32,923 bases of DNA, from IMG/VR virus record IMGVR_UViG_3300032011_000063, positions 1 through 32,923 of that record. The stretch is one strand, 5' to 3'. Position numbers and translations under genes: made by a program. Below are positions 5,349 to 31,813 of the stretch, one piece after another (position 1 is the first letter of the stretch; each line of letters opens with the position of its first letter). The notes under the pieces were generated by a model. It was not told the origin of the DNA and searched no databases. It saw only the letters and a list, made by a program, of their open reading frames with translations. Source of the DNA: a virus.

Positions 5349-5352
5349 TACC

Positions 5353-8140: not shown

Positions 8141-8201
8141 TCCCTTTTGTGAATAAAATATATCACTTAGATAAGTCTCAGATCAAATAGGGTTTCTCCT
8201 C

Positions 8202-9743
8202 ATGCCGACTAATATCCCTGATAAGTTAAAACATCTTAGTGCTCCGATCACAATTAATAACAACCGAAGAGTGCTTCAAAATGATTCTTCAGTTTCTTTA
8301 TTGCGAAAGAATGTCCTCAACAAACTATTAGACCCCCGGCGAGATATTGATGCCGAGTGCGGTTATCCGGAAGACATCACAGCCGCACAGTTTCGTTATC
8401 TTTACGACCGAGAAGGAATAGCAGAGCGGGTCGTTTCCATCTTCCCAAACGAATGTTGGGCGGTCGACCCTAGGGTATTTGAAAATGAGGAAGCTGAAGG
8501 TACGGATTTTGAAGATGCTTTTCTACAGCTCCAGAATAATCTAAATCTGTGGCACTTCTTGGCACGTGCTGATACGATGAGCGGTATCGGCAGATTCGGT
8601 TTGGTTCTCTTAGGCTTAGATGACGGAAAAGAACTACATGAGCCTGTTGATGGTATCGACGAAAGAGGACAGAAAGTAGGAAGCAGTCAGCACGAACTTT
8701 TGTATCTGCGAGTGTTCGATGAGTCGCTGGTTGACATCTCCAGTAAAGAAACAGACCCAAGTAATCCCAGATTTGGTCAGCCCACTTATTACAGTATCAC
8801 ATTCGGTACCATAAACGAGGGAGTCAATATAGATGAAGGGACTATGCATCGAGTCCATTGGAGTAGAGTCGTACACATAGCCGATAATAGAATGTCCAGC
8901 GAGGTCTACGGAACGTCCCGCATGCAGCCAGTTTATAATCGCCTGTATGACCTAAGAAAGTTATTAGGCGGCTCAGCTGAAATGTTTTGGAAAGGTGCTT
9001 TCCCTGGTCTATCGTTTGAAGTAAACCCAGACCTAGGTGATGTGGAGTTAGATGCTTCTGCTTTAAGAGCCGAATTTGATTCATACTCCAACGGTCTTCA
9101 AAGATACTTGGCTCTTGCAGGAGTACAAGCTAAGTCATTAGCTCCTCAAGTAGCTAATCCAGAAGCACATATTAATGCCCAGATTAAAGCCATAGCAATC
9201 ACGTTGGGCGTTCCTCATCGTATCTTTATGGGATCAGAAGCAGCACAGTTAGCAAGCTCCCAAGATAAGCAGACTTGGAATAATAGAGTTAGACACAGAC
9301 AAGAAAAGTATGTGGCTCCTATGCTGATACGGCCTTTCGTTCAAAGACTAATTGACTTAGGTATTCTACCTGAGTGTGAATACTTTGAAGTTGACTTCGC
9401 CGATATTTCTACACCAAGTGAAGAAGACAAAGCACGAGTAGCTGGTATCCAAGTAGAGTCCATCTCCAAATATATTCAGTCGGGAACAGACACATTAGTT
9501 CCGCCTCTTGAGTTTCTCACTATGATTATGGGAATGGGACAAGAGCAAGCTGAAGCTATTCTTATGGCTGCTACCGAGCAGATGCAGGCAGACATGATAG
9601 ATGAGTCTCTGGACGATGAGCTGGAAGAACCACTTGAAGAAGAACCACTTGAAGAAGAAGTGGTTGAAGAACCAGAAACAGAATTAGCTGAAGATGAATT
9701 AATTGATAATGCCTTACAAGTTGAATCACAGGAGAATAATTAA
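8202..9743 (+). CDS. Portal protein (DUF1073-like)
   Basis: A 513-residue protein with the course of a phage portal: N-terminal segment AAQFRYLYDREGIAERVVSIFP (two words of the same helix), the WAVDPRVFE strand, ADTMSGIGRFGLVLLGLDDG, the wing domain with HWSRVVHIADNR and YNRLYDLRKLLGGSAEMFWKG, and the stem helix region ITLGVPHRIFMGSEAAQLASS with the following QDKQTWNNRVRHRQ. These match the DUF1073 portal-like group. The portal forms the dodecameric DNA channel at the capsid vertex. The C-terminus (about 465-510) is a run of Glu with an EPLEEE repeat, probably disordered. ATG has no strong ribosome binding site beyond GGGTTTCTCCTC context. Confidence 0.85.
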   Translation: MPTNIPDKLKHLSAPITINNNRRVLQNDSSVSLLRKNVLNKLLDPRRDIDAECGYPEDITAAQFRYLYDREGIAERVVSIFPNECWAVDPRVFENEEAEGTDFEDAFLQLQNNLNLWHFLARADTMSGIGRFGLVLLGLDDGKELHEPVDGIDERGQKVGSSQHELLYLRVFDESLVDISSKETDPSNPRFGQPTYYSITFGTINEGVNIDEGTMHRVHWSRVVHIADNRMSSEVYGTSRMQPVYNRLYDLRKLLGGSAEMFWKGAFPGLSFEVNPDLGDVELDASALRAEFDSYSNGLQRYLALAGVQAKSLAPQVANPEAHINAQIKAIAITLGVPHRIFMGSEAAQLASSQDKQTWNNRVRHRQEKYVAPMLIRPFVQRLIDLGILPECEYFEVDFADISTPSEEDKARVAGIQVESISKYIQSGTDTLVPPLEFLTMIMGMGQEQAEAILMAATEQMQADMIDESLDDELEEPLEEEPLEEEVVEEPETELAEDELIDNALQVESQENN

Positions 9744-10460
9744 ATGCCAGACATTACAGAAGTCATCGTGGACAATGCTGATGATGGTTACGCATTGGAG
9801 AATTATTACTATGAGTCATATGATTCAGGCTCTTTCAGTAACTCATCCTCAAGATTTTATCTTTCGTGGAATACGTCTTCCGATCCGTCCATGGAGTACA
9901 CGGTTAGAAATATTTACACGAGATTCCAATCCGTTCCGATCCCAGTTGGATCAACAATAACTTCCGCTTATTTGAAATTATATTTTCATACTGGGACTAC
10001 CTACGATGGCAAGATTATGACCATCAAAGGAAACGATGTTGATGACGCTACATCCCCCACAGATGTTGATGAATTCCGTGCTTTAGCTTTAACTACTGCC
10101 GGAGTTGATTGGACGGTTGGCTCAATGAGTGGTGGGACACAATATACTTCACCAGATATTGGTTCGGTGATTTCTGAGATAGTAGGAAGAGCAGGTTGGG
10201 CGGAAAACAATGACCTTCAATTGCTGGGAACAAGTACAGGTTCTAGTTCTTCAGACAACTTTCTTTTGCAGTGGCGTTCTAGAAATTATAGTGAAGCATC
10301 TGCCCCTGAGCTTGTCATCTCTTATACGGCTCCGGCAACAACGACTACAACAACAGAAGCTCCGGCATCTGGTGATACAGTTTACGATTCAGTCATTAAA
10401 GCGGTACAACCAGCCGCTTTCAGTTTAATAGATACAGTCAATACAGAAGGAAATAGATAA
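9744..10460 (+). CDS. Beta-rich virion protein with Thr-tract linker
   Basis: A 238-residue protein. Residues 1-205 look like one jelly-roll or carbohydrate-binding-like domain, with ITSAYLKLYFHTGTTYDGK and WRSRNYSEASAPELVISYT, a pattern seen in DNRLRE-like beta domains of secreted proteins. A TTTTTTEAP linker at about 209-217 leads to a short helical tail SVIKAVQPAAFSLIDTV. The linker is the same style as in the large adhesin at 25606. It directly follows the portal stop and overlaps the next gene as TAATG. Possible role: capsid-surface decoration or fibre that binds sugars. Inference from fold pattern and position. Confidence 0.6.
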   Translation: MPDITEVIVDNADDGYALENYYYESYDSGSFSNSSSRFYLSWNTSSDPSMEYTVRNIYTRFQSVPIPVGSTITSAYLKLYFHTGTTYDGKIMTIKGNDVDDATSPTDVDEFRALALTTAGVDWTVGSMSGGTQYTSPDIGSVISEIVGRAGWAENNDLQLLGTSTGSSSSDNFLLQWRSRNYSEASAPELVISYTAPATTTTTTEAPASGDTVYDSVIKAVQPAAFSLIDTVNTEGNR

Positions 10461-10765
10461 TGCCAAACTCAATGACTCAAATTTTGACCGCGGCCACATC
10501 TGGTGAATCAGCTTCTCAGCAATGGTATGGTGGTGAAGGACAGTTTTCAGTATCGGGAACATTCGGCGGAACTGCCGCTGTTGAATTACAAATGTCTCCC
10601 GATGATGGATCAACTTGGATTCCTGTCAGCGGTTCAAGCGTGACAATTCCTGATTGTAAGTCCTTCCGATTAGGGACTTGCGATATTAGGTTAGCCATCA
10701 CGAACGAACATGGAACCACATCCATCAATGGATTTATTACTAAGACTACCGGCCAGTGGACTTAG
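10460..10765 (+). CDS. Small beta-rich virion-like protein
   Basis: A 101-residue protein, beta-strand rich with Gly/Ser/Thr: GEGQFSVSGTFGGTAAVEL followed by QMSPDDGSTWIPV. This strand-turn pattern recalls small Ig-like or decoration proteins of phage heads. It is coupled to the previous Thr-linker protein by a TAATG overlap, so the two may act together. No family assigned. Confidence 0.55.
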   Translation: MPNSMTQILTAATSGESASQQWYGGEGQFSVSGTFGGTAAVELQMSPDDGSTWIPVSGSSVTIPDCKSFRLGTCDIRLAITNEHGTTSINGFITKTTGQWT

Positions 10766-10794
10766 ATTCGGTGTAATATAAATTGGAGCATCCT

Positions 10795-11166
10795 ATGTCT
10801 GCAAAGACCTTAGAGTTTTATTGCCCTCTCTGTAAGGGAGTGCAAACAGTCCATCGCGGAATATGCAACTCTTGCGGTAAGCTAATAGGATGCTCCATTA
10901 TTAAATACGATGAGGCGGATAACTATTACGGTTGTCAAGACAATCATATGCTGATACAGGAACTACAAAAAATGACTGGTTCCAGAGATGCTCTAATCAC
11001 AAAGATGTATTCAGTATTGGTCTATAAAACAACTCACGGTATCCCTAGAGATGAGCTTATTCAAGAATCATTAAGGGACGTTAAACAGATAGCCAGAAAT
11101 GCTCTAAGGGAATTTGGGATCGATGAAGAAACACCGCCATCACCATCAATGTCGCTGTCAGAGTAG
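10795..11166 (+). CDS. Zinc-ribbon protein next to head morphogenesis gene
   Basis: A 123-residue protein. The N-terminus carries CPLC and CNSC separated by 11 residues, then CGKLIGC: a zinc ribbon. The C-terminal half is helical (residues ~60-110) and ends in an Ser/Pro-rich tail. I place the start at ATG 10795, six bases after GGAG; an in-frame TTG upstream overlaps that ribosome binding site. It overlaps the gpF-like gene by 44 bases. Function unknown; location suggests a head assembly or packaging accessory. Confidence 0.65.
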   Translation: MSAKTLEFYCPLCKGVQTVHRGICNSCGKLIGCSIIKYDEADNYYGCQDNHMLIQELQKMTGSRDALITKMYSVLVYKTTHGIPRDELIQESLRDVKQIARNALREFGIDEETPPSPSMSLSE

Positions 11167-12304
11167 TTGCCAGACTGGCCTTGCTCTAAACCAAAAAAGA
11201 GCAAGTAAGAATCCATTGAGAATGGATCCGACACGCACGACCTCCCTTCGCAACTCTTTCGTTCGTGAAGTAAATAAGAGAATGGCTCAGCTCAAACGGG
11301 CTATTCGATATGTGGTCGGCGACCTAGATGTCTTCGGGATAAAAAGATCCAATCCCTTTACTGCTAATGCCCCTGCCTTCTTCTTTGAGTCTTATGGTTT
11401 ACAGACTCCTCGGCCATCAGAAATAGAATCCATTTTAGGTATTGCTTATGATCCTAATTTCATAGCAGACGCTGGACCAATCGTAGCAGCTCAAAGCCCA
11501 TCAGCCCAGCTTACTGCTTTTCAGAAGTGGATGAAACAACAAGCAGAAGCGGGAATTATCCAAGTACCGACAGGCTTTGAGGGAGAGCCGTGGTGTGCCC
11601 CCTATATCGAATCATCCTATAAGAAAGCAATGCTCCGAACATATACGGATATTTATGGGCTATCGGCACAGGCGAGTGGTCTTGGAGGTTCTCAAGCAGC
11701 TTTTCTACAGTCTGCTTTTGCGGCACCGATAGCAACGAATCAGATACAGATATTAGCCACCAGATGCTTCCAGCAGTTAGAGGGAGTAACGGCCGCTATG
11801 GAACAGCAGATGGCACGAATACTGGCAGACGGGCTAATACATGGAAGAAGTCCGTACGTGATAGCAAGGGAATTGGAAAAGACTGTCGTTACCATGACCA
11901 AGAGGAGAGCACGAACGATAGCCAGAACAGAGATTATTCATGCCTATGCTGAAGGCCAATTAGATACTTTTGAGATAGTTGGAAAGGATGACGTTACCAT
12001 AATGGCCGAGTGGTCTACTGCTGGTGACGATAGAGTATGTGAAGCATGTAATTCATTAGAGGGCGTTGTCTTAAAAGTATCAGAAGCCCGAGGTCTAATA
12101 CCTAGACACCCTAACTGTCGCTGCGCATTTTTACCGTATGATCCTATGTTCCCTGAAAAAGGCTCTAAGACAAGAAAACAAGAGATAGAGGGAGCCATTC
12201 GGACATCAATAAAGAAAACATCCCCTAAAGGATCCTCCTTCGCAGAAGCAGTAGAGTCTTCTTCCTGGGCGGGTTCTAGTTTACCATTTTTAAGACCTAA
12301 GTAA
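11123..12304 (+). CDS. Mu gpF/SPP1 gp7-like head morphogenesis protein
   Basis: About 393 residues. The C-terminal half has the family signature: RRARTIARTEIIHAYAEGQ, then WSTAGDDRVCEACNSLEGVV and IPRHPNCRCAFLPY, with Cys/His likely binding zinc. These proteins sit near the portal, are packaged in small numbers and are needed for head assembly. The N-terminus from DPTRTTSLRNSF is the usual start of the conserved part. ATG at 11123 gives an extra His/Cys-rich leader (MKKHRHHHQCRCQ); ATG at 11222 is an alternative start exactly at the conserved segment. No toxin domain is fused at the C-terminus. Confidence 0.85.
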   Translation: MKKHRHHHQCRCQSSCQTGLALNQKRASKNPLRMDPTRTTSLRNSFVREVNKRMAQLKRAIRYVVGDLDVFGIKRSNPFTANAPAFFFESYGLQTPRPSEIESILGIAYDPNFIADAGPIVAAQSPSAQLTAFQKWMKQQAEAGIIQVPTGFEGEPWCAPYIESSYKKAMLRTYTDIYGLSAQASGLGGSQAAFLQSAFAAPIATNQIQILATRCFQQLEGVTAAMEQQMARILADGLIHGRSPYVIARELEKTVVTMTKRRARTIARTEIIHAYAEGQLDTFEIVGKDDVTIMAEWSTAGDDRVCEACNSLEGVVLKVSEARGLIPRHPNCRCAFLPYDPMFPEKGSKTRKQEIEGAIRTSIKKTSPKGSSFAEAVESSSWAGSSLPFLRPK

Positions 12305-12315
12305 GGAGACGATCC

Positions 12316-12420
12316 ATGCGTCAGTTATTATTCGATTTTATGAAAGAAGAATGTTCAAACTGTAACTGCTGTAAAAACTGTAGTTGCTGTAATTCAGATA
12401 CAGAAATAAAAGATGATTGA
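12316..12420 (+). CDS. 34-residue cysteine-cluster peptide (metallothionein-like)
   Basis: ATG at 12316 is seven bases after a strong AAGGAG. The peptide begins MRQLLFDFMKEE and then has a cluster CSNCNCCKNCSCC with seven cysteines in 13 residues, followed by an acidic tail ending KDD. The repeated NCxCC spacing looks like a metal-binding cluster as in metallothioneins, or a disulphide-rich peptide. The N-terminus is amphipathic, not a signal peptide, so a cytoplasmic metal-binding role is more likely. It follows the gpF-like gene by 11 bases and precedes the RNA structure at 12442. No family match can be claimed. Confidence 0.6.
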   Translation: MRQLLFDFMKEECSNCNCCKNCSCCNSDTEIKDD

Positions 12421-12434
12421 TTAGAATCAAACAA

Positions 12435-12441
12435 TATAAAT
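12435..12441 (+). promoter_or_regulatory. T4-late-like TATAAAT element
   Basis: TATAAAT occurs just upstream of the hairpin at 12442. A second copy at 10777-10783 precedes the zinc-ribbon gene. T4-type late promoters use TATAAATA with no -35, and the window encodes a gp55-sized sigma-like factor. AT-rich sequence makes chance matches likely, so this is only a candidate. Confidence 0.2.
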
Positions 12442-12536
12442 CCTCGTGAACGTGGTTAAGGGGTTCTCCACGACACGGGGTACGCCAGTGATGGGTGGGC
12501 GCAGAGATGCGGGGTTTGGGTACTGGCGTTTTTTAT
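12442..12536 (+). ncRNA. Two-hairpin structured RNA ending in a terminator
   Basis: Hairpin 1: CCTCGTG (12442-12448) pairs with CACGGGG (12474-12480, one G-U pair), and CGTGG (12451-12455) with CCACG (12468-12472), with an AA/A bulge and a 12-base loop. Hairpin 2 starts two bases later: ACGCCAGTG (12482-12490) pairs with TACTGGCGT (12521-12529), then a symmetric 9/9 internal loop made of GGGTGGG and GGGTTTGGG, then CGCA/TGCG closed by a GAGA tetraloop (12504-12507). A run of six or more T follows. Hairpin 2 plus the T-run satisfies an intrinsic terminator, but the internal loop with four G3 runs and the GNRA loop are more elaborate than needed. Confidence 0.7.
12482..12536 (+). terminator. 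Intrinsic terminator after the head morphogenesis operon
   Basis: The outer stem ACGCCAGT/ACTGGCGT is perfect over eight bases and is followed immediately by TTTTTTAT. It would end transcription of the portal to Cys-peptide operon before the gene at 12565. Confidence 0.7.
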
Positions 12537-12564
12537 AATAGAAATTTATTAAGGAAATAGCACA

Positions 12565-13092
12565 ATGGCTAAAACATTTAAGGCCGATTTTAACTTTCGG
12601 ACGATATGGGAGTATGTCAATACTCCAGATAGTGCGGTAGCCGATGCTCCGTCTATCAAAGATAACAACACTTTATTGATTACAGATAATCTGACGAATG
12701 GTACTGGCACTGCTGATGTTGCTAGTAAGATTTATCACGATATCCGGACACTCGCACATTCCTCTAATGAAGAGTTTGATCTGGCTGGAGTTCTTGAAGA
12801 TGCGTTTGGAGATGTTCTCACCTTTACGATTGTGAGAGGACTATTCATAATCAATAAAGAACTATCGTCTGCTGCTCCGGTATTAGAAGTCGGCGGAGCA
12901 ACTAATGCCTTCTCAAGTATCTTCGGAAGTGCTACTGATAAAGTTAAGGTGGCAGGTGCCGGGATGATAGCGTTCTGGAATCCTACTGTCGCTGGTTACG
13001 CCGTTACGGCAAGTACGGCTGATGTCATTAAGGTTGCCAATACTAGTGGTGCCGATAGCTGCACTTACCAGATAGTAATAATCGGAGAATAG
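12565..13092 (+). CDS. Putative virion protein
   Basis: A 175-residue protein with little Cys and many small residues. The middle has EEFDLAGVLEDAFGDVLTF followed by TIVRGLFIINK, then VLEVGGATNAFSSIFGS; this D-L-x-G-x-L-x-D-x-F-G-x-x-L-T-F pattern recurs, from memory, in uncharacterised phage structural-region proteins. It is beta-rich and probably a virion or decoration component. AAGGA precedes the ATG by about nine bases. It stands alone between the terminator at 12482 and the convergent minus-strand cassette. Confidence 0.55.
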   Translation: MAKTFKADFNFRTIWEYVNTPDSAVADAPSIKDNNTLLITDNLTNGTGTADVASKIYHDIRTLAHSSNEEFDLAGVLEDAFGDVLTFTIVRGLFIINKELSSAAPVLEVGGATNAFSSIFGSATDKVKVAGAGMIAFWNPTVAGYAVTASTADVIKVANTSGADSCTYQIVIIGE

Positions 13093-13093
13093 G

Positions 13094-13330
13094 TCATCTG
13101 GCTCTTTTTGGAAACTTCTTTCTCCAACTCTTCGTGAAGAACCAAGTCGGTACCCTATTTCTAGGTTGCTGAAAGGTCATCGTATCAGCGACGGCGAGAC
13201 CCCCATGCCAGATGATGGGGTTCTTGCCGTCAAGGAAAAGCTGATTCCCTTTTTCGATAGCATCTGCGATGTCATCGAATAGTTCAGTGACAATATGGCA
13301 ATAGTCGATTTTGTATTGAAGCTCAAACAT
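13094..13330 (-). CDS. Hypothetical small cassette protein
   Basis: A 78-residue protein. The N-terminal half is acidic and helical (YKIDYCHIVTELFDDIADAI), the C-terminal tail basic (KSWRKKFPKRAR). No family recognised. The ATG overlaps the stop of the next upstream gene as TAATG and is preceded by GGGGAG. It ends one base from the convergent plus-strand gene with no visible terminator between them. Third and last gene of the minus-strand cassette in the late region. Confidence 0.6.
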   Translation of the reverse strand: MFELQYKIDYCHIVTELFDDIADAIEKGNQLFLDGKNPIIWHGGLAVADTMTFQQPRNRVPTWFFTKSWRKKFPKRAR

Positions 13331-21092: not shown

Positions 21093-21433
21093 AGGCTGGA
21101 GAGACAATATGGTGGCTGATGCTAGCCGAAAAGTTAGGGATGACTCTTCGGGAGTGTCAGTCACGTGTCTCCAGCAAAGAGTTCGTCTTGTGGAAGATAT
21201 ACATGCGAGATGAGCACAACCGTTTTCATCGTGAGGATTATTTGTTCGCTATGGTCGCCTCCGAAGTTCGGAGAACTATAGTCAAGAATCCAAACAAAGT
21301 CAAAGTCGAGGACTTCCTTCTGAAATTCCAAGAAGCAGGAAAGACAGCGGAAGACCTAGAAGAAGTCAAGAACCAGAAGTTAAACTGGTTGTCTTTTGTG
21401 GGTTTGGATTCGGAAGTTCTGGGTGAAGATTAA
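20712..21433 (+). CDS. Tail assembly chaperone G-T fusion by -1 frameshift
   Basis: The zero frame reads G GGA AAC at 21080-21086, a canonical X-XXY-YYZ slippery site two codons before the G stop. The -1 frame is open from 21065 to 21433. The product joins 20712-21086 to 21086-21433, 240 residues, with the junction AEEEAGN then RLEAGETIWWLMLAEKLGMT. The T part (LAEKLGMTLRECQSRVSSKE followed by FVLWKIY) is the usual T-domain pattern. The second frame has an internal ATG at 21119 but no ribosome binding site, so it is not an independent gene. Lambda uses GGGAAAG for the same purpose. Confidence 0.85.
21080..21086 (+). promoter_or_regulatory. -1 ribosomal frameshift slippery site
   Basis: GGGAAAC in the phase G-GGA-AAC lies four codons before the end of the chaperone G frame, counting the stop (GGA AAC GAT TAG). 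Codons after a -1 slip continue without a stop for 115 codons. No strong stem-loop was noticed just downstream. Confidence 0.85.
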
Positions 21434-24198
21434 TGGCTACTGCTGATATTGAAGGACTTTTAATAAAAATTGCAGCTGATACAAGCTCCCTTAAAAAGGA
21501 GCTTCAGGATGCAAAAGGTTCAGTCAACGACTTTGCTACTACTACGCAAAGGAGGATGAAAGCAACAGGCGAGTCAATGGCTCGGCTAGGTAAGAAGATG
21601 ACTATGTTTATCACCTTACCAGTTATCGCTGGAGTCACAGCCGGAATTAAAGCCTTTTCAAACTTCGACAAGGCCATGACAACGTCCACTGCTATTATGG
21701 GCGATATGACCGATGAGCTTAGAAATCGGATGGCTGCCACAGCCAAACAAATATCTGAAGAAACACCAACCTCAGCCACGAAAGCAGCTGAGGCTTATTT
21801 CTTCCTTGCTTCTGCTGGTATGGATGCCGAAGAATCAATAAGATCACTTTCACATGTTAACCAATTTGCAATCGCTGGCCAATTCGATATGGCGACAGCG
21901 ACCGACTTGTTAACAGACGCTCAAAGTGCCTTGGGAATGTCCATAGGCACAACAGCTATGAAGACCGCTGCTTTAGTACGTGTGTCTGACGTGCTAGTGA
22001 AGGCAAACACATTAGCCAACGCTACCGTCGAACAGTTCAGTACAGCTCTTACATCGAAGGCAGGGGCTTCACTTAGGAGCTTCAATAAAGATATTGAAGA
22101 AGGTGTCGCCGTTCTAGCTGTATATGCCGATCAAGGTATTAAAGCAGAACTTGCTGGTAATAATCTTGACCGTGTTCTTAGATTGCTATCTGATGCATCA
22201 ATGAAGAATGCCGCTGCATTCAAAGAAGCAGGTTTTGATGTATTCGATGCCAATGGTGAAATGAGAAATATGGCGGATATTATCCAGAATCTGGAACAGG
22301 TGATGGCTGGATTATCCCCTGAGATGGTTCGGATTAAATTAGCAACTCTAGGATTCGAGGCCAGAGTTCAACAAGCGATCATGCCTTTGCTTGGTTTCTC
22401 GGAAGCTATTAGAGATAATGAGGAAGCATTAAGAAATTCTGCAGGGACTACAAACGATGTTGTGGTCAATCAGTTAGAGGCTTTTGAAGCTCAGATGCAG
22501 ACTACTTGGAATTCCATTAAGAATGTTTCAGCAGAGATAGGTGAAAAGTTTATTCCGTTTGTGCAACACATGGCTGGTGAAATAGAATCCCTGATTGAAT
22601 GGTGGAGAAGTTGGGATGATTGGGTTCAGAATCTAGTTCTTGGGTTTATCACATTTATGGCAATACTGGGACCCACATTAATTGCACTGGGTACTTTGGT
22701 AGGTATGATGGCTGCGATTCAGATAGGCTATACAAAAGCAACTATCGCCCTCGCACTATATGGTGGTACATCTAAACTTGCAACAATAGCTCAATGGGCA
22801 TTAAACATGGCTATGGCTGCCATGCCTGTCTTGGCGGTATTAGCAGCTGCCGCTGCGATAATAGCTGTAGCTGTTGCCATTGGTAGAGCCCTTGCGGGTT
22901 ACGGAGAATTGAAAGCCGCTCAGAAAGAAAGAGACCGCCTTGACAAAGAGTGGATGAAGTCATGGGAAACACAAAACATCCAAGAGATGAATGAACTCAC
23001 AGGAATGGAAGATGGAATAGAAAAACAAAAAGAATTTGGACTGGCGATCAAACGGGCCGAAAATAATGTCTCAGGCATGAACTTGCGTCTCAAGCTACAA
23101 AAAGATTTGTTGAAAGAAATGGAGGACGCGGGAGCATCTTACGGTGCGATTGGTAGTGAAGTTTATACCGCTGAAAAAGATAATCTTAATCAGATGCTTG
23201 ATCAGAAAGAGATGTATAAGCAGCATCAAAAGGATCTCATAGAAGCCGCTGAACATCACAATCAAGTCCTAGCAGATCAGAAAGACCTAGAAGAAGGAAG
23301 GGCAATCCGAGGAGAAATATACGCTGAAGAAACAGATGCCATTGTTGAACTTAATCAAAAGTTGGAGCATCAAATCGCAACGTACGGAATGTCGGCTAGT
23401 CAGATAGAGATGTACAATGCGGCACAGAAGGGAGCTACGGAAGAACAGCTTAAAGAACTTCAAGCCATAGCAGATAAAAACGATGCTATGGAAGCGGAAC
23501 TCCAAGCACGTAAAGATGAAGAAAAAGCTATTCAAGAACAGAAGGATGCTGAGGAAGAACTGTTAAGAACCAAAGAGCAAATGAATCAAGCACTAGATGA
23601 TGAAATTGCTACGTTCCATATGAATGCAGCCGAAAAAGCAGAGTATGCTGCAATACAGGCAGGCTTAAATGCGGAAGAGGCTTTTGCATTAAAACTGAAA
23701 ACACAAATACTTGAAAATATGAAAGCAGAAAAGAAAGCCCTGGAAGAAGAACAGAAGCTGAAAGAAAAAGGCGAGCAGCTTAGAAAATCTGTCAGGAAAC
23801 CTGGAGAGAAATTCAGAGAGGGACAGAAAGAACTCAACGACCTACTTCAGAAAGGAGCCATAGATTTGGAGACCTATACCAGAGCTATGGAGAAGTTGAA
23901 GGAGGATACGACAGTTCAAATCAAATTCAAAGTAAGTGGTGTCGATGCTGTCGCAGCAGGAAGTGCTGAAGCCGCTGCAAGACTTGAAGAATTCCGAGCA
24001 CTAAGAAGTGGTGGAGAAAAAGTTGATTTCAAAGCACAAGGACAAGACCTTCTTAATCGACGACCGCGAATAAATGCAGCACCGGGAATACCAGCAGAAG
24101 AAAAACAAGGTGCTGAGAATCTAAACAACATTGCACAAAATACTAGAATCTTGGCTGAAAGGATTCCAGTTGTGATAGAGGAGGCTGGTCTAGCATAA
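21433..24198 (+). CDS. Tape measure protein
   Basis: A 921-residue protein that sets tail length and is ejected with DNA. The N-terminal PhageMin_Tail-type domain includes IAADTSSLKKELQDAKGSV, FDKAMTTSTAIMGD and PTSATKAAEAYFFLASAGMD with the following residues. Hydrophobic segments occur near 58-70, 400-430 (LVLGFITFMAILGPTLIALG) and 470-490 (MPVLAVLAAAAAIIAVAVAI). The rest is a long Lys/Glu/Ala coiled coil (~500-800). At about 1.5 angstrom per residue the tail would be near 140 nm (a general rule, not a measurement). It overlaps the chaperone T stop by one base. Confidence 0.92.
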   Translation: MATADIEGLLIKIAADTSSLKKELQDAKGSVNDFATTTQRRMKATGESMARLGKKMTMFITLPVIAGVTAGIKAFSNFDKAMTTSTAIMGDMTDELRNRMAATAKQISEETPTSATKAAEAYFFLASAGMDAEESIRSLSHVNQFAIAGQFDMATATDLLTDAQSALGMSIGTTAMKTAALVRVSDVLVKANTLANATVEQFSTALTSKAGASLRSFNKDIEEGVAVLAVYADQGIKAELAGNNLDRVLRLLSDASMKNAAAFKEAGFDVFDANGEMRNMADIIQNLEQVMAGLSPEMVRIKLATLGFEARVQQAIMPLLGFSEAIRDNEEALRNSAGTTNDVVVNQLEAFEAQMQTTWNSIKNVSAEIGEKFIPFVQHMAGEIESLIEWWRSWDDWVQNLVLGFITFMAILGPTLIALGTLVGMMAAIQIGYTKATIALALYGGTSKLATIAQWALNMAMAAMPVLAVLAAAAAIIAVAVAIGRALAGYGELKAAQKERDRLDKEWMKSWETQNIQEMNELTGMEDGIEKQKEFGLAIKRAENNVSGMNLRLKLQKDLLKEMEDAGASYGAIGSEVYTAEKDNLNQMLDQKEMYKQHQKDLIEAAEHHNQVLADQKDLEEGRAIRGEIYAEETDAIVELNQKLEHQIATYGMSASQIEMYNAAQKGATEEQLKELQAIADKNDAMEAELQARKDEEKAIQEQKDAEEELLRTKEQMNQALDDEIATFHMNAAEKAEYAAIQAGLNAEEAFALKLKTQILENMKAEKKALEEEQKLKEKGEQLRKSVRKPGEKFREGQKELNDLLQKGAIDLETYTRAMEKLKEDTTVQIKFKVSGVDAVAAGSAEAAARLEEFRALRSGGEKVDFKAQGQDLLNRRPRINAAPGIPAEEKQGAENLNNIAQNTRILAERIPVVIEEAGLA

Positions 24199-25094
24199 TG
24201 AGTAGTATAAATTATGGAAGAATTGATTGGAGCTTATCCCGTGATAAAGAAGGTCACCGAACTTATAAGGTCAAGTGGTTAGTCAGATCCGGTTATACCG
24301 ACGATGGCCCCGCTCACGCTTTAGTTGCGCAAGGTCTTCCCGCTATTGGCTCTTCATGGAATCAAGGAAATGATTACGATGCTTGGGCACGTTGTCTTCC
24401 TGTTATGTCGTGCAGAAGTCTAACTCAAAACGAAAAAGGAATATGGTGGGAAGTTGAACAGACATTCTCCACCAAGCCGCTTAATCGTTGCCAAGATACC
24501 ACGATTGATAACCCTCTTAATGAACCCGATAGAATCTCTGGCGGCTTTGCAAAGTACACCAAGGAAGTTGAGAAAGATAAAGACGGTAAGGCAATAAAAT
24601 CTAGCTCCTTGGAAAGAATAAGGGGCGACCAAGTTACCTTTGATGCCAATAGACCTACGGTAACTATTGAAAAGAATGTTTTAGTGCTTCCTTTAGTTGA
24701 CATCGCCGAGATGATAGACACTGTTAATGAATCCACGTTGTGGGGACTCTCCAAACGCTGTGTAAAGCTATCCAACGTCAGTTGGAGTAGAGAACTATAT
24801 GGGACTTGTACCTTCTTTTACAAAGTCTCCTACGAGTTTGAATGCAGATACGATACATTTGATAATACGATATATGATGAAGGCACCAAAGTTTTAGTCA
24901 AAGGAGGGGATAAAAAGAACCCTGATGACTTCAAACTTTATGAAGACATCAACGGAAATAATACAAGAGTGTATTTGGATGGGAAGGGGAATGTCTTGGA
25001 GGATATTGAAAATCCGATTGAGATAGATATCGAATATTATGATGAATCAAACTTCTCCACTTTAGGAATCCCAACCGATTTAACCCTAGCTTGA
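24198..25094 (+). CDS. Putative distal tail/baseplate protein
   Basis: A 298-residue protein right after the tape measure, the usual place of the distal tail protein. It is beta-rich and Trp-containing: RTYKVKWLVRSGYTDDGP, IWWEVEQTFSTKP and YGTCTFFYKVSYEFECRYDT. No closer family was recognised. It overlaps the tape measure stop as TAATG. The C-terminus is rich in Asp and probably exposed. Confidence 0.55.
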   Translation: MSSINYGRIDWSLSRDKEGHRTYKVKWLVRSGYTDDGPAHALVAQGLPAIGSSWNQGNDYDAWARCLPVMSCRSLTQNEKGIWWEVEQTFSTKPLNRCQDTTIDNPLNEPDRISGGFAKYTKEVEKDKDGKAIKSSSLERIRGDQVTFDANRPTVTIEKNVLVLPLVDIAEMIDTVNESTLWGLSKRCVKLSNVSWSRELYGTCTFFYKVSYEFECRYDTFDNTIYDEGTKVLVKGGDKKNPDDFKLYEDINGNNTRVYLDGKGNVLEDIENPIEIDIEYYDESNFSTLGIPTDLTLA

Positions 25095-25112: not shown

Positions 25113-25601
25113 ATGTCTGACGCAGATTACGCAACGACAATAGAACAGCTTGAAGCCATCGCAGTAAAGCCCTCTGATGCTCTTGAAGATTACGACAGAA
25201 TCACAGCACGATTAGATTTCTATTATGAGAAATTTAATGAAAACCCTATCTATTCCAGTCACGTATTAGAGGCCGTACTACCTCAATCCGAAGAAGATGT
25301 TTACAAGCGTAAAGTAAAAGTGGATCAGGACTGGATTGCGATAGATACTGGCTGGCTTGAGAACGTGAGCTACATCTTAATCAAGAATACAAAAAAAGCC
25401 TACAGCGTTCATCCATCTAAGGAAGAACAAGATTCGGATAAAAACAAAAACATTCTAGTAAGATATGACAAAGGGGATCCTTTATTTACGATTGATAAAG
25501 GTTCTTTTTTGCTGTTCAAGCCTATGGATGTAACTAAAATTCAGATAAGCTCACCTGAAGGAAGTACAAAGGTTGAACTTATTGTGATGCCTTTAGGATA
25601 A
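25113..25601 (+). CDS. Putative tail-tip protein
   Basis: A 162-residue protein. The N-terminal third is helical and acidic (DYATTIEQLEAIAVKPSDAL), the rest beta-rich, with KKAYSVHPSKEEQDSDKNKN as a charged loop. It precedes the adhesin by four bases, so the two are probably neighbours in the tail tip. No family recognised. AGGAG lies before the ATG. Confidence 0.55.
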   Translation: MSDADYATTIEQLEAIAVKPSDALEDYDRITARLDFYYEKFNENPIYSSHVLEAVLPQSEEDVYKRKVKVDQDWIAIDTGWLENVSYILIKNTKKAYSVHPSKEEQDSDKNKNILVRYDKGDPLFTIDKGSFLLFKPMDVTKIQISSPEGSTKVELIVMPLG

Positions 25602-25605: not shown

Positions 25606-28530
25606 ATGGCCAATTATTATTTATCGGATGCCGATAGAGATAAAATCAAAGCTGCGTTGGACCGATTGGATCAGGAAACGCAAGCTCACGCCAACTCTTT
25701 CAGACCAGATCAGGTTTGGCAGGCAAACGATACTTATTTTGGTATTCTTCATTGTGATGATACTCTCGGTCCCAGACGTGGAAACAGACCTGGCGTTGCT
25801 GAAGTTTGTTTATATCGCCACGTTCACTCAGGCGGTTCTTCATACAGAATAGAAGCGGTCAAAACTCCGGACGGTGAAATTGTTAGGGTCACTTGTTACA
25901 ACATCTACTTAGAGGCCATTACCGGGGAAGATGGGTACTTCCAGATGTATCGTTCAAAGTATGGACGATGGTTAAATGAACGTCCCGCTGGAGCACCAAC
26001 CACAACAACTTCAGCACCAAGTTCCCCACAACTTCCATCAGAAACAGATTATCCTGATCCAGTTCCAACACCTTGTTCGGGTACTTGTGAATGGCGTTGG
26101 AATTCTTATGAACAAGCGTGGGAAGTACAAACAGATGGTTGTTCAACCTCACCAACTAATCCACCAACAACATACCCACCATATGAACCCGACCCCGATC
26201 CTACTTGTAAGCAATGCCCACATCCAAACTCAACACTTGCACCACTCGACACCTCTATAGCTCCAACAGCGGCAGCGATTGCATACGCCTCTTCTGGTAC
26301 TACAACCACTACGACCACTACGACCAATGACCCGAGTCTTTGCGATTGTGAGTACCCAGAATATTGCGGGGATGTAGATGGTGAACTTGCTCAAACTCAA
26401 TGTGTTACCGATGTAGGTACCCCGAACCTAAATTGCACAACTACAACAACCAGTTCACCCACAACTCAAGCACCTTGTAATTGCGACACAACAACCACAA
26501 CTCAAAATCCTGATGCGAATTGCACGCTTGGTTGTGATTATGCAACCAAACTTGTTCCTGGCGGAGGAGGAGCTTGGGAATGGGTTCAGACTTCAAATGG
26601 GTGTTCATACGGTTGTCCTTGTAGTTGGCCGCCAACCGAACCAGAGTGTGATGCGACCTATCATTCGGAATGCCAAGTCGTTGAACGAGAACCATCCCCA
26701 CCACCACCAGAGCCTACATGCAATGGAACATGCACTTACATGTATGACACGGCTTGGGTATGGATAGAAGGGGGTTGTACTGGTACGTCTGGAGGAATGG
26801 TTGCCGGTAATTGCAGTTGTGATTTCCCATCTCAATCTGGTTCTTCATGTGATGTGGTTTCAACTCCTTGCCGATTCCGTGAATCAACAACCACAACTCT
26901 TTCTTGTGAAGAGCAATGTTATACAACCACAACAACTGACCCAACCACAACCACAACTTCAACAACAACGACAACCTGTAATCCATGTGCCAGAGTTTGT
27001 CCTGGAGGTAGTGGACGTGAGGGATTGTGTTTCTACAGGTACGATGAAACTTGTGCTTCTTGGGTTCTAACTTATGACGGCTGTGATGAAGATAACTGCC
27101 CATGCCCAGAAACTAGAGATGATCTTGGAGCATCATCTGATGGCGTGGTTGTAAATATCCCATGCTCAAGATATACAACACCAGCACCGACGACAACATT
27201 GGCTCCTGAATCTTGTCAAAAGGTTTGCAAGTGGAAATATTCTTGTGATTGTACTCCACCCCAATGGCTGGTGGTTGTCGATGGTTGTGATACCGTTGAA
27301 TCGGGAGAGCCTTGTTATACTTGTGGGGAGGCGAGCGACGCCATACCCAAATCCGTATTTGAGAACCCATCTTGTGGAAAAGAGGTTGAAGCTGTTTGTG
27401 GAACGACAACGACAACATCAACAGCGGCTCCGACAACAGCGGCTCCGACAACAGCACCACCAACCACAACAACGCTTTGCCCAACAACGACGACGACAAC
27501 AACAGTAGCTCCGACAACAACCACAACAACATGCGCCCCAACTACAACGACCGCTGACCCGTGTGCGGTTCCAAATTGTCAAATGCAATGTATTGATCAA
27601 GCGGGATTTCCTGATATTGATTCCTATTGGTACACAACAGAAATTCATGACCGAATGTGCCCTATGCAAGATCCGCCAGGATGCACATGTACAGGACCAG
27701 GAGGGGAAGTGTATTGGGGGAGTTGCAATGGAAGAGAAGGTGAAGTTGTAAACGGAACATGCGGCCCAGCAACAACGACAACCTGTAATCCTTCCGAAAC
27801 ATGCGAAGAACCACCCAACTACAATGACAGATGCAATCGGGCACACAATGGAAGATATTGTTGTTGCAAAGGTGCATGTTGCACTTATTCAACATTGGCT
27901 TCTTGTACTATTAACGGCGGTGGAATTGGGAAGTTACTCAGTTGCAATGAAACTGAAGTTTGGAATTGTAATAAGCCAAGAGGCGGCGGTTCATGTTGCA
28001 AGAGTCCAGCCGATGGCGGTTGTGATGTTTATTGGTTAGGTGCTGGAGCTTCCTGTGACTCTTGCCCAGATGACTATGATGGCACAACGACAACGACAAC
28101 AACACCAGCCCCAACAGGCTCATGTTGCCATAATTATGGTTCTTGTAGTGACGGAGATACTGAAGCAGAATGTGCCGCAAGAACAGCGGGTACATGGGAT
28201 GCGACTAATGATTGTGCCGCCAGAACATGCCCAACAACAACAACACCAGCACCAACCGGCTCTTGTTGTTATAATTACGGATCATGTTCTGATGGAGATA
28301 CCGAAGCGGAATGTGCCGCAAGAACAGCAGGAACATGGGATAGTTCAAATGATTGTGCAGCTAGAACATGCCCAACAACTACAGTGGCTCCAACATGTAG
28401 CGGCGACTGTATTTACATATGGGACGGATCGGCTTGGGGATTATCATCGAATACATGTACCTGTAGTTGTTCCCCACCAGCAGGAAGTGGAGACTATCCG
28501 ACAGAGACAAGAGCAGGTACCTGTTCTTAA
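25606..28530 (+). CDS. Large cysteine-rich, threonine-tract adhesin or tail fibre
   Basis: A 974-residue protein. Residues 1-130 form a non-Cys-rich base (LSDADRDKIKAALDRLDQET at the start) that probably docks to the tail tip. The rest alternates Thr-Ala-Pro linkers (TTTTT, TTAAPTTAPP) with Cys modules. At least six type-A modules read C-x-W/Y-x-W/Y ... W ... GC ... CxC, for example CSGTCEWRWNSYEQAWEV, CNGTCTYMYDTAWVW and CSGDCIYIWDGSAWG. Two type-B modules (TGSCC..YGSCSDGDTEAECA) are tandem with a 47-residue period at 28117 and 28258. No signal peptide or catalytic motif was seen. It is likely a receptor-binding fibre; the many cysteines suggest disulphides outside the cell or bound metal. 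Confidence 0.75.
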   Translation: MANYYLSDADRDKIKAALDRLDQETQAHANSFRPDQVWQANDTYFGILHCDDTLGPRRGNRPGVAEVCLYRHVHSGGSSYRIEAVKTPDGEIVRVTCYNIYLEAITGEDGYFQMYRSKYGRWLNERPAGAPTTTTSAPSSPQLPSETDYPDPVPTPCSGTCEWRWNSYEQAWEVQTDGCSTSPTNPPTTYPPYEPDPDPTCKQCPHPNSTLAPLDTSIAPTAAAIAYASSGTTTTTTTTTNDPSLCDCEYPEYCGDVDGELAQTQCVTDVGTPNLNCTTTTTSSPTTQAPCNCDTTTTTQNPDANCTLGCDYATKLVPGGGGAWEWVQTSNGCSYGCPCSWPPTEPECDATYHSECQVVEREPSPPPPEPTCNGTCTYMYDTAWVWIEGGCTGTSGGMVAGNCSCDFPSQSGSSCDVVSTPCRFRESTTTTLSCEEQCYTTTTTDPTTTTTSTTTTTCNPCARVCPGGSGREGLCFYRYDETCASWVLTYDGCDEDNCPCPETRDDLGASSDGVVVNIPCSRYTTPAPTTTLAPESCQKVCKWKYSCDCTPPQWLVVVDGCDTVESGEPCYTCGEASDAIPKSVFENPSCGKEVEAVCGTTTTTSTAAPTTAAPTTAPPTTTTLCPTTTTTTTVAPTTTTTTCAPTTTTADPCAVPNCQMQCIDQAGFPDIDSYWYTTEIHDRMCPMQDPPGCTCTGPGGEVYWGSCNGREGEVVNGTCGPATTTTCNPSETCEEPPNYNDRCNRAHNGRYCCCKGACCTYSTLASCTINGGGIGKLLSCNETEVWNCNKPRGGGSCCKSPADGGCDVYWLGAGASCDSCPDDYDGTTTTTTTPAPTGSCCHNYGSCSDGDTEAECAARTAGTWDATNDCAARTCPTTTTPAPTGSCCYNYGSCSDGDTEAECAARTAGTWDSSNDCAARTCPTTTVAPTCSGDCIYIWDGSAWGLSSNTCTCSCSPPAGSGDYPTETRAGTCS
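28117..28397 (+). repeat. Tandem duplicated Cys module (141-bp period)
   Basis: Two copies of a 47-codon unit start at 28117 and 28258. At protein level they differ at only a few residues (H/Y and ATN/SSN), but many third positions differ, so the copies have diverged under protein-level constraint rather than being recent. A third, degenerate start (APTCSGDC) follows. Confidence 0.8.
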
Positions 28531-28560: not shown

Positions 28561-30456
28561 ATGCCAAAACTAACTATCGGAATGGCTCACTATGATGATT
28601 ATCATGGAGCCTATTTCACCATTCAAGCACTTCGGTTGTATCACCCCGAAGTAATAAAAGATATTCAGTTTGTTGTAATAGACAACTCCCCTCACACTCA
28701 GCATGGATCTCTTCTGAAAGGTTTTGTGGAGGGGGCAGCAAGAAGGGGAACGGCTGGAGCTAAATACATTCCCCTTACAGATCCCAAAGGAACGTCACCT
28801 AGTCGCAACGCTATCTTCGACCATGCCGATGGTGACTTTGTTCTGGTTAATGATTGTCACGTCATGTACCCATCCGGATCCATTAAGAGGCTACTGGATT
28901 ATTATCAGGCAAATCCTAAAACCAATAACATCTATTCTGGCCCTCTTGTTTACGATGGGATGGACCAAGTAACTACCCACTTTAATGATGAGTGGCGTGG
29001 CGAGATGTGGGGGACTTGGGGTTCTGCTTGGACTAATCAAGATGAAACAGAATACTTTTCCATTATCCAAGATCCATCAAAGAAAGACCAAGCATTACCT
29101 ATAGCTTTAGAGATGGGACAGAAACCGATTATGAGTTGTGCGGGTAAACAGGTTCCGCATAAGATTGCTTGGGCTGGGCATCCTTCTGTTTACAAAGATG
29201 CTGGCTTCAAGTTGGCAGGTGTGAATGATGATGATAAGCCATTTGAAATTCCAGGACAAGGCTTAGGCTCTTTCACTTGTCGACGTGCTGCTTGGTTGGG
29301 TTTTAATCCCCATTCAAGAGGTTTCGGCGGTGAAGAACTTTACATCCACGAAAAGTATAGACAACAAGGCGGTAAAGCAATCTGTCTTCCGTTTCTCAAA
29401 TGGGTACATCGCTTCGGTCGCCCAGATGGTCCGAAGTATCCTCTCACAAGATACGGGAAGGTGAGGAACTACGTCTTGGAGTTCAATGAGTTGGGACGTG
29501 AATTAGATCCCATTCACGAACACTTTGTTAGCACTGGATTGTTATTGGATACTATTTGGGACCGTCTTATAGAGGACCCCATTAAAAATGAACTGGAAGA
29601 AAAAGAAGAAGGGGAGAAGTGTTCACCATGTGAAGCAGCCCGTAAAATTCAAGGGTCTACATTAGAGGAGGAAGGTGCTCCCGTTGAGAAGGTATTTGAA
29701 ATTGTTAGCAATGTCAAACGGGACCTAGATGAGCATCTAGAATTTTTAAGGGACTTGGCTTCCGACTGCAAGCACATTACAGAAATCTCAAAACGCAAAG
29801 AATCTTTTGTTGCTTTTGCCGCTGCTAAACCTAAGACACTTGTGTCTCACAATATTGAACCTCATAGTCTTATGGATTATATGGAAGCGATCCTCCCTGG
29901 AACTAAAATTCAACGGACTACGTTGACGACTGAGCTTGTGGAGCCAATAGAAAAGACGGACCTTCTGTTCATAGATACCCGTCACACTTTTGGAGTCATG
30001 ACTAATGAGTTAAAGAAACACGCCTCATCTGTCAGGCGGTATATTGTTGCAAGGGGAACCGGATCAAACGGCGAGCGTGGAGAAGATGGTGGACCAGGTA
30101 TCTTATTTGCCCTCCGTGAGTTTATGAAAGAGAATCCCGAGTGGTCTGTGATTACCCACAGAACCAATCAGTATGGTATGACTGTTCTTGGTCGGTTAAA
30201 GAAAGACAAACCGAAGTTACCGTCCAAGATAAAGATGGCAAAGAACTTTGCACTGGCGGTCAAAGACCATATAAAAACAGGATCTGAAAGTGCAAGCAAA
30301 GAAGTGGTAGAGGACCGCTTGTCGCTTTGCAGTATCTGCGAATTCAGAAACGATGACCAATGCTCACTATGCGGTTGCTTTCTTGCTAAGAAGGCCTCGT
30401 GGGCAGAATCAAATTGTCCGATCGGAAAATGGGCGGGCGATAATAAGGAGACCTAA
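28561..30456 (+). CDS. Glycosyltransferase-methyltransferase-like-zinc ribbon fusion
   Basis: A 631-residue three-part protein. Residues 1-330: GT-A fold glycosyltransferase of family-2 type, with LTIGMAHYDDYHGAYFTIQA, GTSPSRNAIFDHADGDFVLVN and metal-binding NDCH (97-100), and FGGEELYIHEKYRQQGG with WVHRFGRP. Residues ~380-560: a Rossmann methyltransferase/CmcI-like segment with DLLFIDTRHTFGVMTNELKK and PGILFALREFMKENPEWSV, lacking an obvious SAM glycine motif. Residues ~590-625: a Cys4-type ribbon, CSICEF..DQCSLCGCFL...SNCPIGKW. It would add and perhaps modify sugar; the acceptor may be the adjacent Thr-rich adhesin. GGAG lies before the ATG. Confidence 0.75.
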   Translation: MPKLTIGMAHYDDYHGAYFTIQALRLYHPEVIKDIQFVVIDNSPHTQHGSLLKGFVEGAARRGTAGAKYIPLTDPKGTSPSRNAIFDHADGDFVLVNDCHVMYPSGSIKRLLDYYQANPKTNNIYSGPLVYDGMDQVTTHFNDEWRGEMWGTWGSAWTNQDETEYFSIIQDPSKKDQALPIALEMGQKPIMSCAGKQVPHKIAWAGHPSVYKDAGFKLAGVNDDDKPFEIPGQGLGSFTCRRAAWLGFNPHSRGFGGEELYIHEKYRQQGGKAICLPFLKWVHRFGRPDGPKYPLTRYGKVRNYVLEFNELGRELDPIHEHFVSTGLLLDTIWDRLIEDPIKNELEEKEEGEKCSPCEAARKIQGSTLEEEGAPVEKVFEIVSNVKRDLDEHLEFLRDLASDCKHITEISKRKESFVAFAAAKPKTLVSHNIEPHSLMDYMEAILPGTKIQRTTLTTELVEPIEKTDLLFIDTRHTFGVMTNELKKHASSVRRYIVARGTGSNGERGEDGGPGILFALREFMKENPEWSVITHRTNQYGMTVLGRLKKDKPKLPSKIKMAKNFALAVKDHIKTGSESASKEVVEDRLSLCSICEFRNDDQCSLCGCFLAKKASWAESNCPIGKWAGDNKET

Positions 30457-30457
30457 A

Positions 30458-30949
30458 ATGAAACCTCAATTTACAGGAAAGGCAGATAGACAGTTGGATG
30501 ACCACGAGTTCCTAGCCTTGTCACAACTAGCAAGAGGAATACGTGTTCTACAGATAGGCAACTTACAAGGACGGTTAACGGACGCTCTTGCTCAGAATGC
30601 GGAGCACATTATAAGCATTGATCAATCAAAGATGAATGAAGAAGTTTCGTTATTGAATCCAAAAGATTTTGATCTTCTGTTTTACGATGCAGATGATACA
30701 GTTCAAGACATACAGTTCTTTTGTGATTGGGCGTTGAATGTCCGACACGATGCTATCGTAGTGATACATGATTACAAACCTGGAGATCCTATTTGGCAAC
30801 CTTCCGTTGATGTCATGGATAAATGGCATACTGATTCCGGTCGGATGGCAAAGCTAATCGGCTCCTTATTTATCGCAGTCAACCAGCAGATCCCATATGG
30901 GCAACATCTGGGAACAGAAAACTATCCAGAGAAAATTGAAACCGATTGA
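30458..30949 (+). CDS. SAM-methyltransferase-like protein
   Basis: A 163-residue Rossmann protein: RVLQIGNLQGRLTDALAQ in the motif I position, IISIDQS, FDLLFYDADDTVQDI and VVIHDYKPGDP. Motif I is degenerate (IGNLQG rather than GxGxG), so activity is uncertain. AAGGAGACC precedes the ATG at 30458. It probably works with the two glycosyltransferases on either side. A frame extending 5-prime is just the end of the previous gene read in another frame. Confidence 0.65.
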   Translation: MKPQFTGKADRQLDDHEFLALSQLARGIRVLQIGNLQGRLTDALAQNAEHIISIDQSKMNEEVSLLNPKDFDLLFYDADDTVQDIQFFCDWALNVRHDAIVVIHDYKPGDPIWQPSVDVMDKWHTDSGRMAKLIGSLFIAVNQQIPYGQHLGTENYPEKIETD

Positions 30950-30980
30950 CATTTCCATAATTTCGATTTTTATAACTATT

Positions 30981-30999
30981 CAACTTCCGTTTGAAGTTG
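30981..30999 (+). other. Small inverted repeat upstream of second glycosyltransferase
   Basis: CAACTTC (30981-30987) and GAAGTTG (30993-30999) flank a five-base loop, followed by AT-rich sequence with ATTATTTTTA. It may be a weak terminator for the methyltransferase operon, or overlap the promoter that follows. Confidence 0.4.
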
Positions 31000-31024
31000 C
31001 TATCATTATTTTTATGTGTATAGT
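30997..31024 (+). promoter_or_regulatory. Candidate promoter for the second glycosyltransferase
   Basis: TTGCTA (30997-31002) and TATAGT (31019-31024) are 16 bases apart in an AT-rich 108-base gap, 34 bases before the next ATG. This is one of few sizeable gaps in the plus-strand late region. Confidence 0.4.
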
Positions 31025-31057
31025 TTTTTGTGTGAACAAAATAGGAACAAATCAAAA

Positions 31058-31813
31058 ATGAAAATCGCTTGTTTAATGCCGACCTATAATCGCTGTCCAA
31101 AAAACCAGCATCTTATAGAGGAAGCACTCCATTCATTTCTACTTCAAGATTATGATAATCGTGAATTGATTATCTGCAATGATACTCCAGATCAGAAACT
31201 AATCTATTCGGATGCTATTGATCAAGATAAGATTATCATCCAAAACCTAGATACCAGATTTGGTACCTTGTCTGATAAAATCAAATTTATGATTGAAAGT
31301 TCTGACGCAGACTTATTCTGTCGCTGGGATGACGATGACATAAGTTTGCCGCATAGACTTTCATATTCAGTAGACAATTTAGGCGATAAGCTAGAATGGC
31401 GTGCTGAGAATTACTATTACTGCCCAGGCGACAAAACTCTCCATACATCCGGTGTAGGTAATACACATTGTATGAGTTTATGGCGCAGGGAAGTATTGGA
31501 GGTAATCGGCGGTTATCCAGAGAAGGCTAGTGGATGGGAAGACCAACAGTTTAACATCCAATTAGCCAGTAGTGGAGTTAACACTTCCGGTGACTTAATT
31601 CCTATTGATGAAATATTTTATCTGTATAGGTGGGGAGTTTCGGATAGACATCTTTCAGGTACTGGAGGCGGGAATAAAGGACTTCAACAGCATTGGGATG
31701 AAATCGGACAGAAAGAAATATCTCAAGGTGAATTTCATCTACAACCTCATTGGGCAGAAGATTATGTCCTCAGAGCAAAAGAAGCCAAAGGAGCGGCCCC
31801 TATGGCCGGTTAG
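31058..31813 (+). CDS. Family-2 type glycosyltransferase
   Basis: A 251-residue GT-A enzyme: KIACLMPTYNRCPKNQHLIE at the N-terminus, LHSFLLQDYDNRELIICND, then the metal-binding RWDDDD near residues 88-93, and GGYPEKASGWEDQQF with the likely base. These are the usual family-2 landmarks for a nucleotide-sugar transferase. ATG at 31058 has AGGAA about 11 bases upstream. It is followed by a terminator at 31819 and probably forms a late or independent unit with its own promoter. Sugar and acceptor are unknown. Confidence 0.82.
   Translation: MKIACLMPTYNRCPKNQHLIEEALHSFLLQDYDNRELIICNDTPDQKLIYSDAIDQDKIIIQNLDTRFGTLSDKIKFMIESSDADLFCRWDDDDISLPHRLSYSVDNLGDKLEWRAENYYYCPGDKTLHTSGVGNTHCMSLWRREVLEVIGGYPEKASGWEDQQFNIQLASSGVNTSGDLIPIDEIFYLYRWGVSDRHLSGTGGGNKGLQQHWDEIGQKEISQGEFHLQPHWAEDYVLRAKEAKGAAPMAG

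Follow-up and report, generated by a model that had tools for sequence, protein, structure and literature searches.

What do two glycosyltransferases (GTs) act on when their genes lie directly behind a phage tail-region gene full of threonine (Thr) tracts? This question is raised by the virus record IMGVR_UViG_3300032011_000063 (32,923 bases; analysed over its whole length and here called the window), which stems from a bacterial virus that is known from environmental DNA alone and encodes a terminase, a portal and head proteins as well as a tail tape-measure protein. The tape-measure gene is followed by two small tail-region genes, a gene for a Thr- and Cys-rich protein and a fusion that joins a GT-A domain to a methyltransferase-like domain and a Cys-rich end. 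After these come a small methyltransferase-like gene and a second family 2 glycosyltransferase (GT2) gene, downstream of which the open reading frames (ORFs) are on the minus strand. Only 30 bases separate the Thr-rich gene from the fusion. A preliminary description, made from the letters of the sequence, had proposed the order of the last four genes, and it is borne out by reading frames that are open in all four and by Pfam and PHROG matches. The same description called the Thr-rich protein an adhesin; the Thr richness holds, and the name itself derives only from the place downstream of the tape-measure gene. We consider it probable that the phage uses this module to glycosylate a tail protein of its own, the one with the Thr tracts.

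Threonine tracts and the enzyme gene behind them

The Thr-rich protein consists of 974 aa, among them 164 Thr and 93 Cys, and holds 16 runs of four or more Thr (T4+), compared with a mean of 0.62 and a maximum of 4 in 2,000 composition shuffles. Cys modules of the CxGxCxWxW type recur in it, and neither a Pfam nor a PHROG family was matched. Three or four Thr codons were in use in the runs of the 13 Thr-run proteins that were checked, and within the runs of the window adjacent codons were identical in 19 of 67 cases (0.28), as against 0.37 for random order. The mixed codons rule out that the tracts are products of DNA slippage or simple microsatellites; the runs are therefore kept at the protein level.

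Scanning with the fusion yielded 4 viral loci, and the alignment of these retrieved 47 viral loci. Near-identical loci were merged at 95% identity, which left 36 distinct sequences including the window. A genome collection contributed 8 loci, all from metagenome-assembled genomes (MAGs) and including an archaeal bin, Thermogutta, Chloroflexota, Thermomicrobiales and Planctomycetaceae. No match to the fusion was obtained by tblastn in 50,697 records of isolated phages. The enzyme was either fused to the methyltransferase-like domain or, at most other loci, consisted of a GT domain of ~340-390 aa. Two shorter members of 275-279 aa (L139 4240-5067 and L146 3892-4731), both encoded directly downstream of Thr-tract ORFs, were found only through the Thr-codon scan described below. 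In a Beijerinckiaceae MAG (L056 6810-8852) a 680-aa ORF carries the GT domain at its C-terminal end; its N-terminus is presumably kinase-like, and Pfam recognised only PF00535 in it. A Thr-run neighbour was not seen upstream on the same strand.

For 44 distinct loci (leaving out L056-L059, L075 and the Thr-selected L139, L141, L146 and L168) we scored whether the next same-strand upstream ORF holds at least two T4+ runs. This was the case at 35 of the 41 loci with an upstream ORF in view. Given how frequent such ORFs are within these loci, chance would yield 7.0 of 41, and a count as high as 35 did not occur once in 100,000 random draws. The co-occurrence of Thr-tract proteins with the enzyme, which the preliminary description had named as a check on its proposal, was found in this way. 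Where the score was negative, the Thr-run ORF lay one gene further upstream (L012, L053) or directly downstream (L042), or the upstream protein had a single T4+ run and the enzyme was kept (L029, L046, L047). Four loci of the genome collection, scored later by eye, added one positive (L057) and brought the total to 36/45; the Thermogutta and Chloroflexota MAG loci, two of the eight from this collection, keep the direct pairing. L057 is an 806-kb contig of a Thermomicrobiales MAG, where an ORF that is rich in Cys (16%) and holds 10 Thr runs ends 178 bases before the enzyme. The enzyme gene of this contig (8001-8909) stands between two Thr-run Cys-rich ORFs within positions 4478-13180, the second at 11162-13180, and both ORFs have what we take to be a twin-Arg-like start.

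The reverse test began at the conserved tail-region gene directly behind the tape-measure gene and covered 19 loci, 11 of them informative; contig ends cut the other eight, either within the Thr-run ORF (L061, L071, L073) or before a decision (L064, L066, L074, L077, L079). A Thr-run protein followed by the enzyme was present at 7 of the 11 informative loci, two of which (L062, L063) lie on the contigs that also carry L007 and L008, and both genes were missing at the remaining four (L065, L067, L068, L078). The tree of the tail protein needs two label changes, with a single change also possible, and the pattern therefore reflects few events. In two of the related phages that have neither the enzyme nor Thr runs, the tail region holds different sugar-type genes in their place: L065 contains a cytidylyltransferase (PF02348) and L067 a sulfotransferase match below cut-off.

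A scan for Thr codons gave at least 120 stretches holding 102 ORFs with a run of ten or more Thr (T10+). Among the matches listed, the next same-strand ORF belonged to the enzyme family for 3/75 of the T10+ ORFs compared with 1/801 of other ORFs (Fisher p 0.002, relatedness ignored). That a Thr tract would predict the enzyme is unsupported, since 72 of these 75 ORFs, each with the next gene in view, were without it. According to the reverse tests, Thr tracts are therefore common without the enzyme and the enzyme is rarely found without Thr tracts.

Fold and metal-site residues of the glycosyltransferase domain

The fusion (28561-30456, 631 aa) matched PF00535 at E 4.8e-9. This family was recognised in all 31 members of the enzyme alignment (A2), and both GTs of the window were above cut-off. 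AlphaFold2 on 31 sequences reached a mean predicted local distance difference test score (pLDDT) of 86.9. When the prediction was compared with solved structures by Foldseek, the first 50 rows were all polypeptide N-acetylgalactosamine (GalNAc)-transferases, the enzymes with which eukaryotes, animals among them, initiate mucin-type sugar chains on Thr/Ser. VIA gave GalNAc-T2 as the top match of fusion residues 1-345 (Z 23.7, root-mean-square deviation 3.1, 259 aligned residues, 13% identity), rows 1-29 again being polypeptide GalNAc-transferases throughout (Z 23.7 to 19.1); the best matches outside this group were GlfT2 (Z 18.6), chondroitin polymerase (18.0) and TarS (16.8). The second GT2 of the window, modelled with a pLDDT of 88.8, served as control. 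Its top fold match was a Leptospira GT (Z 19.1) and GalNAc-T2 reached only Z 15.4, so the GalNAc-transferase match is no default of phage GT-A folds. DNA glycosyltransferases were absent among the fold rows listed, an absence that excludes nothing.

Residues D98, H100 and H283 were invariant in 31/31 members; the middle residue of the DxH motif is Cys in most phage members and Ser in L057, L058, L059 and L146. The DxH motif together with a distant invariant His is consistent with the metal site of polypeptide GalNAc-transferases, and, judged by its spacing, H283 would be the third metal ligand of the GalNAc-transferase type. According to a report on Toxoplasma GalNAc-T3, the catalytic Mn2+ is coordinated by a DXH motif together with a distant His, and Thr stretches are glycosylated efficiently (PMC11074326); for a snail enzyme, the same DXH motif and a conserved His are stated (PMC6994419). 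In searches by sequence, profiles A2, A5 and the C-terminal A6 against PDB sequences returned TarP first or nothing useful, a consensus-sequence query for a GalNAc-transferase relationship returned no match, and weak PF02709 matches in the C-terminal part were limited to 5/28 members (best 0.013).

Methyltransferase-like units, Cys-rich end and second GT2

The region downstream of the GT domain of the fusion keeps a methyltransferase fold (Table 1), and Methyltransf_24 was matched in 6/31 and RMNT_CmcI in 3/31 members. Both usual glycines of the S-adenosylmethionine (SAM) loop are missing from it; a (K/R)(K/R)E motif stands in their place in 14 of 17 fusions, the window included. Between the window, L006, L007 and L008 the identity of this domain is 58-70%, near the 62-78% of the GT domain, and the domain therefore appears constrained; dN/dS (the ratio of nonsynonymous to synonymous substitution rates) between relatives was mostly unusable, as dS was saturated. 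We infer a binding or structural role, perhaps replacing the lectin domain of the eukaryotic enzymes.

For the small methyltransferase-like gene, the ATG one base past the fusion stop is the likeliest start, ahead of the ORF start at 30353; the Methyltransf_24 match of this gene, at 18.8 bits, is below the cut-off of 26.3. Compared with L002 and L003 it has suffered an in-frame loss of ~39 residues and its motif I residues are changed, so that it looks as though it were losing function. A separate Methyltransf_24 gene downstream of the fusion is also found in L019. The O-methylation that the preliminary description thought possible is poorly supported here because both methyltransferase-like units have lost SAM-motif residues. 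The zinc ribbon that it placed in the fusion corresponds to a DUF6171 Cys motif (residues 579-624), which scores 27.2 bits, just above the Pfam cut-off of 27, and is matched in 11/31 members; zinc binding itself is a prediction. The fusion also matched phrog_13558 at E 1.8e-13.

For the second GT2, the likeliest start is the ATG used in Table 1, which matches the starts of its relatives. A GT2 of the same kind lies at most 3.5 kb downstream of the enzyme in 20/26 fusion-type loci (17 on the same strand) and in 0/18 other loci; tblastn in the 50,697 phage records gave two weak matches. Between the fusion and the second GT2 of L053, an ORF at 10061-10732 begins with what we take to be a P-loop-like stretch; Pfam recognised no family in it and it is not claimed as a sulfotransferase. 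A tail-region ORF of the marine group (L039 5382-5951) likewise matched no Pfam family; it has a stretch that presumably resembles a Hint/intein-type motif.

Table 1. Positions in the window of the proposed glycosylation module and its neighbours
Feature	Position	Strand	Basis
Tail tape-measure protein (context)	21433..24198	+	phrog_1533, E 9e-62
Conserved tail-region protein, start point of the reverse test	24198..25094	+	ORF; relatives L061-L079
Small tail-region protein	25113..25601	+	ORF; homologous position in L003, L004
Thr-tract/Cys-rich tail-region protein, proposed glycosylation substrate	25606..28530	+	Thr and Cys counts, T4+ runs; homologues in L003, L004, L005
GT-A glycosyltransferase domain, fusion residues 1-345	28561..29595	+	PF00535; polypeptide GalNAc-transferase-like fold; DxH 98-100, H283
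Methyltransferase-like domain without SAM glycines, fusion residues 375-554	29683..30222	+	Fold match to 8c9v, an O-methyltransferase (Z 17.7); SKRKE at the SAM loop
C-terminal Cys-rich motif (DUF6171/phrog_13558), fusion residues 562-631	30244..30456	+	Pfam and PHROG matches
Small methyltransferase-like gene, shortened, motif I altered	30458..30949	+	Methyltransf_24 below cut-off; comparison with L002, L003
Second GT2 glycosyltransferase	31058..31813	+	PF00535, E 7.8e-9; model and fold match; possible upstream GTG start at 31016

Proposed reaction, alternatives and relation to known systems

Gene order, linkage, fold similarity and residue conservation were computed here, and from them we infer a reaction, a sugar, an acceptor site, an order of steps and a benefit. 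The GT-A domain of the fusion, acting like a polypeptide GalNAc-transferase, would put the first sugar on Thr residues of the tracts, with a nucleotide sugar of the host cytosol as donor; the DxH motif and the distant His would hold the metal that it uses. The second GT2 would then add a further sugar. The methyltransferase-like domain and the Cys-rich C-terminus, no longer a normal SAM enzyme, would probably help to hold the acceptor. The outcome would be a stiff, shielded linker of mucin-like character between the Cys-rich modules of the tail protein. An excerpt on bacterial glycoengineering describes a cytoplasmic GalNAc-T2 pathway (PMC13345888), so action in the cytosol is workable. The earlier proposal that the phage glycosylates its own fibre is now much better supported, by the linkage, the GalNAc-transferase fold match and the joint presence and absence of the enzyme with Thr tracts.

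Several observations weigh against glycosylation of the tracts. The sequence profile placed TarP (E 8e-6) and TarS (3e-5) first among PDB sequences, and the best polypeptide GalNAc-transferase reached E 0.025 over the first 120 residues only. No Pfam family of the ricin-type lectin domain was detected in the 31 members at E 0.1, and a shared fold fixes neither donor nor acceptor. At 6 of the 41 loci no gene with two or more Thr runs lies directly upstream, L056, L058 and L059 of those scored later have no Thr-run gene upstream either, and the great majority of T10+ ORFs, among the matches listed, lack the enzyme. The joint presence and absence, finally, goes back to a small number of independent events in the tree.

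Some of these points would suit enzymes that glycosylate another part of the virion, such as a neighbouring fibre or the Ser, Thr or Trp residues of the Cys-rich modules, with the Thr tracts as spacers. This fits the three loci that keep the enzyme with only one upstream T4+ run (L029, L046, L047), the frequency of Thr tracts without the enzyme, and the recurrence of the Cys modules in the proposed substrate. We nevertheless regard it as unlikely: L065 and L067 have Cys-rich proteins but neither a Thr-run protein nor the enzyme, and the fold match is to enzymes acting on Thr/Ser of unstructured mucin-like peptides.

A modification of the host surface (wall teichoic acid, lipopolysaccharide or capsule), which would block superinfection or alter the receptor, comes into question because TarP, a phage-encoded enzyme that acts in this way, is the nearest by sequence, and the second GT2 resembles both TarP and TarS. 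The TarP/TarS wall teichoic acid GTs share the GT-A family 2 fold with the phage enzyme and are its nearest solved structures by sequence, but they differ in genetic setting, the enzyme here being tied to one virion-region gene, and by fold the GalNAc-transferases stand above TarS (Z 23.7 vs 16.8). Action on the host surface is therefore rather improbable. Phage GTs can glycosylate DNA bases in other systems, but for hydroxymethylated or otherwise hypermodified bases of this phage, the alternative named in the preliminary description, such a role is very improbable because the enzyme genes sit among tail genes and PF00303 (thymidylate-synthase-type) was matched in only 2 of 20 related records, one of them the record of L065, which has no GT, leaving one of the 18 GT-bearing records with such a gene and 17, many possibly fragments, without.

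Glycosylation of the Thr-tract protein, which we prefer, invites comparison with the polypeptide GalNAc-transferases (GT27). Likeness lies in the top fold match, in the DxH motif with a distant invariant His and in the Thr-rich neighbour. Unlike GT27 enzymes, the phage enzyme has no detected ricin lectin and carries a methyltransferase-like domain with a Cys-rich end, or nothing, instead; its sequence similarity to them appears not to be significant and its activity is predicted. In the same way, the domain at fusion residues 375-554 has the fold of Methyltransf_24/CmcI-type domains but differs from them by the (K/R)(K/R)E motif at the place of the SAM glycines. For virion glycosylation in mycobacteriophages, Freeman 2023 is reportedly the primary paper. 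This type of modification is known in mycobacteriophages (PMC12363180, PMC11256854), and according to the former Che8, Corndog and Myrna use GTs of their own to modify capsid and tail-tube proteins. A Che8 GT (Q855A2) was found at rank 44 of the viral fold list. Phage-encoded GTs acting on virion proteins are common to both systems; differences are the Thr-tract target in the tail region, the GT fold nearest to mucin-type enzymes and the fixed gene pair. A phage polypeptide GalNAc-transferase was not found reported in a literature search that had most subscription journals outside its reach. We file the module as phage virion glycosylation that would work like mucin-type initiation, and not as a member of GT27.

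More tentatively, several phage lineages and at least one candidate cellular contig (L057) may run a cytosolic mucin-type O-glycosylation, in which a GalNAc-transferase-like enzyme is dedicated to the poly-Thr tracts of its neighbour and is accompanied by a second GT and variable decorating genes. Since the genes of the enzyme and its likely substrate form a pair, the claim can be put to a direct test in E. coli, and, if it is true, O-glycosylated peptides could be made with a soluble enzyme of bacterial type. Virion glycosylation is so far known in few phages, and a GalNAc-transferase-like fold paired with a likely Thr-tract substrate is a new point. If the proposal is correct, there would be a function for the long Thr tracts that some tail proteins of environmental phages contain, mucin-type initiation chemistry would occur outside eukaryotes, and the question would arise of how mucin-type GTs came into being.

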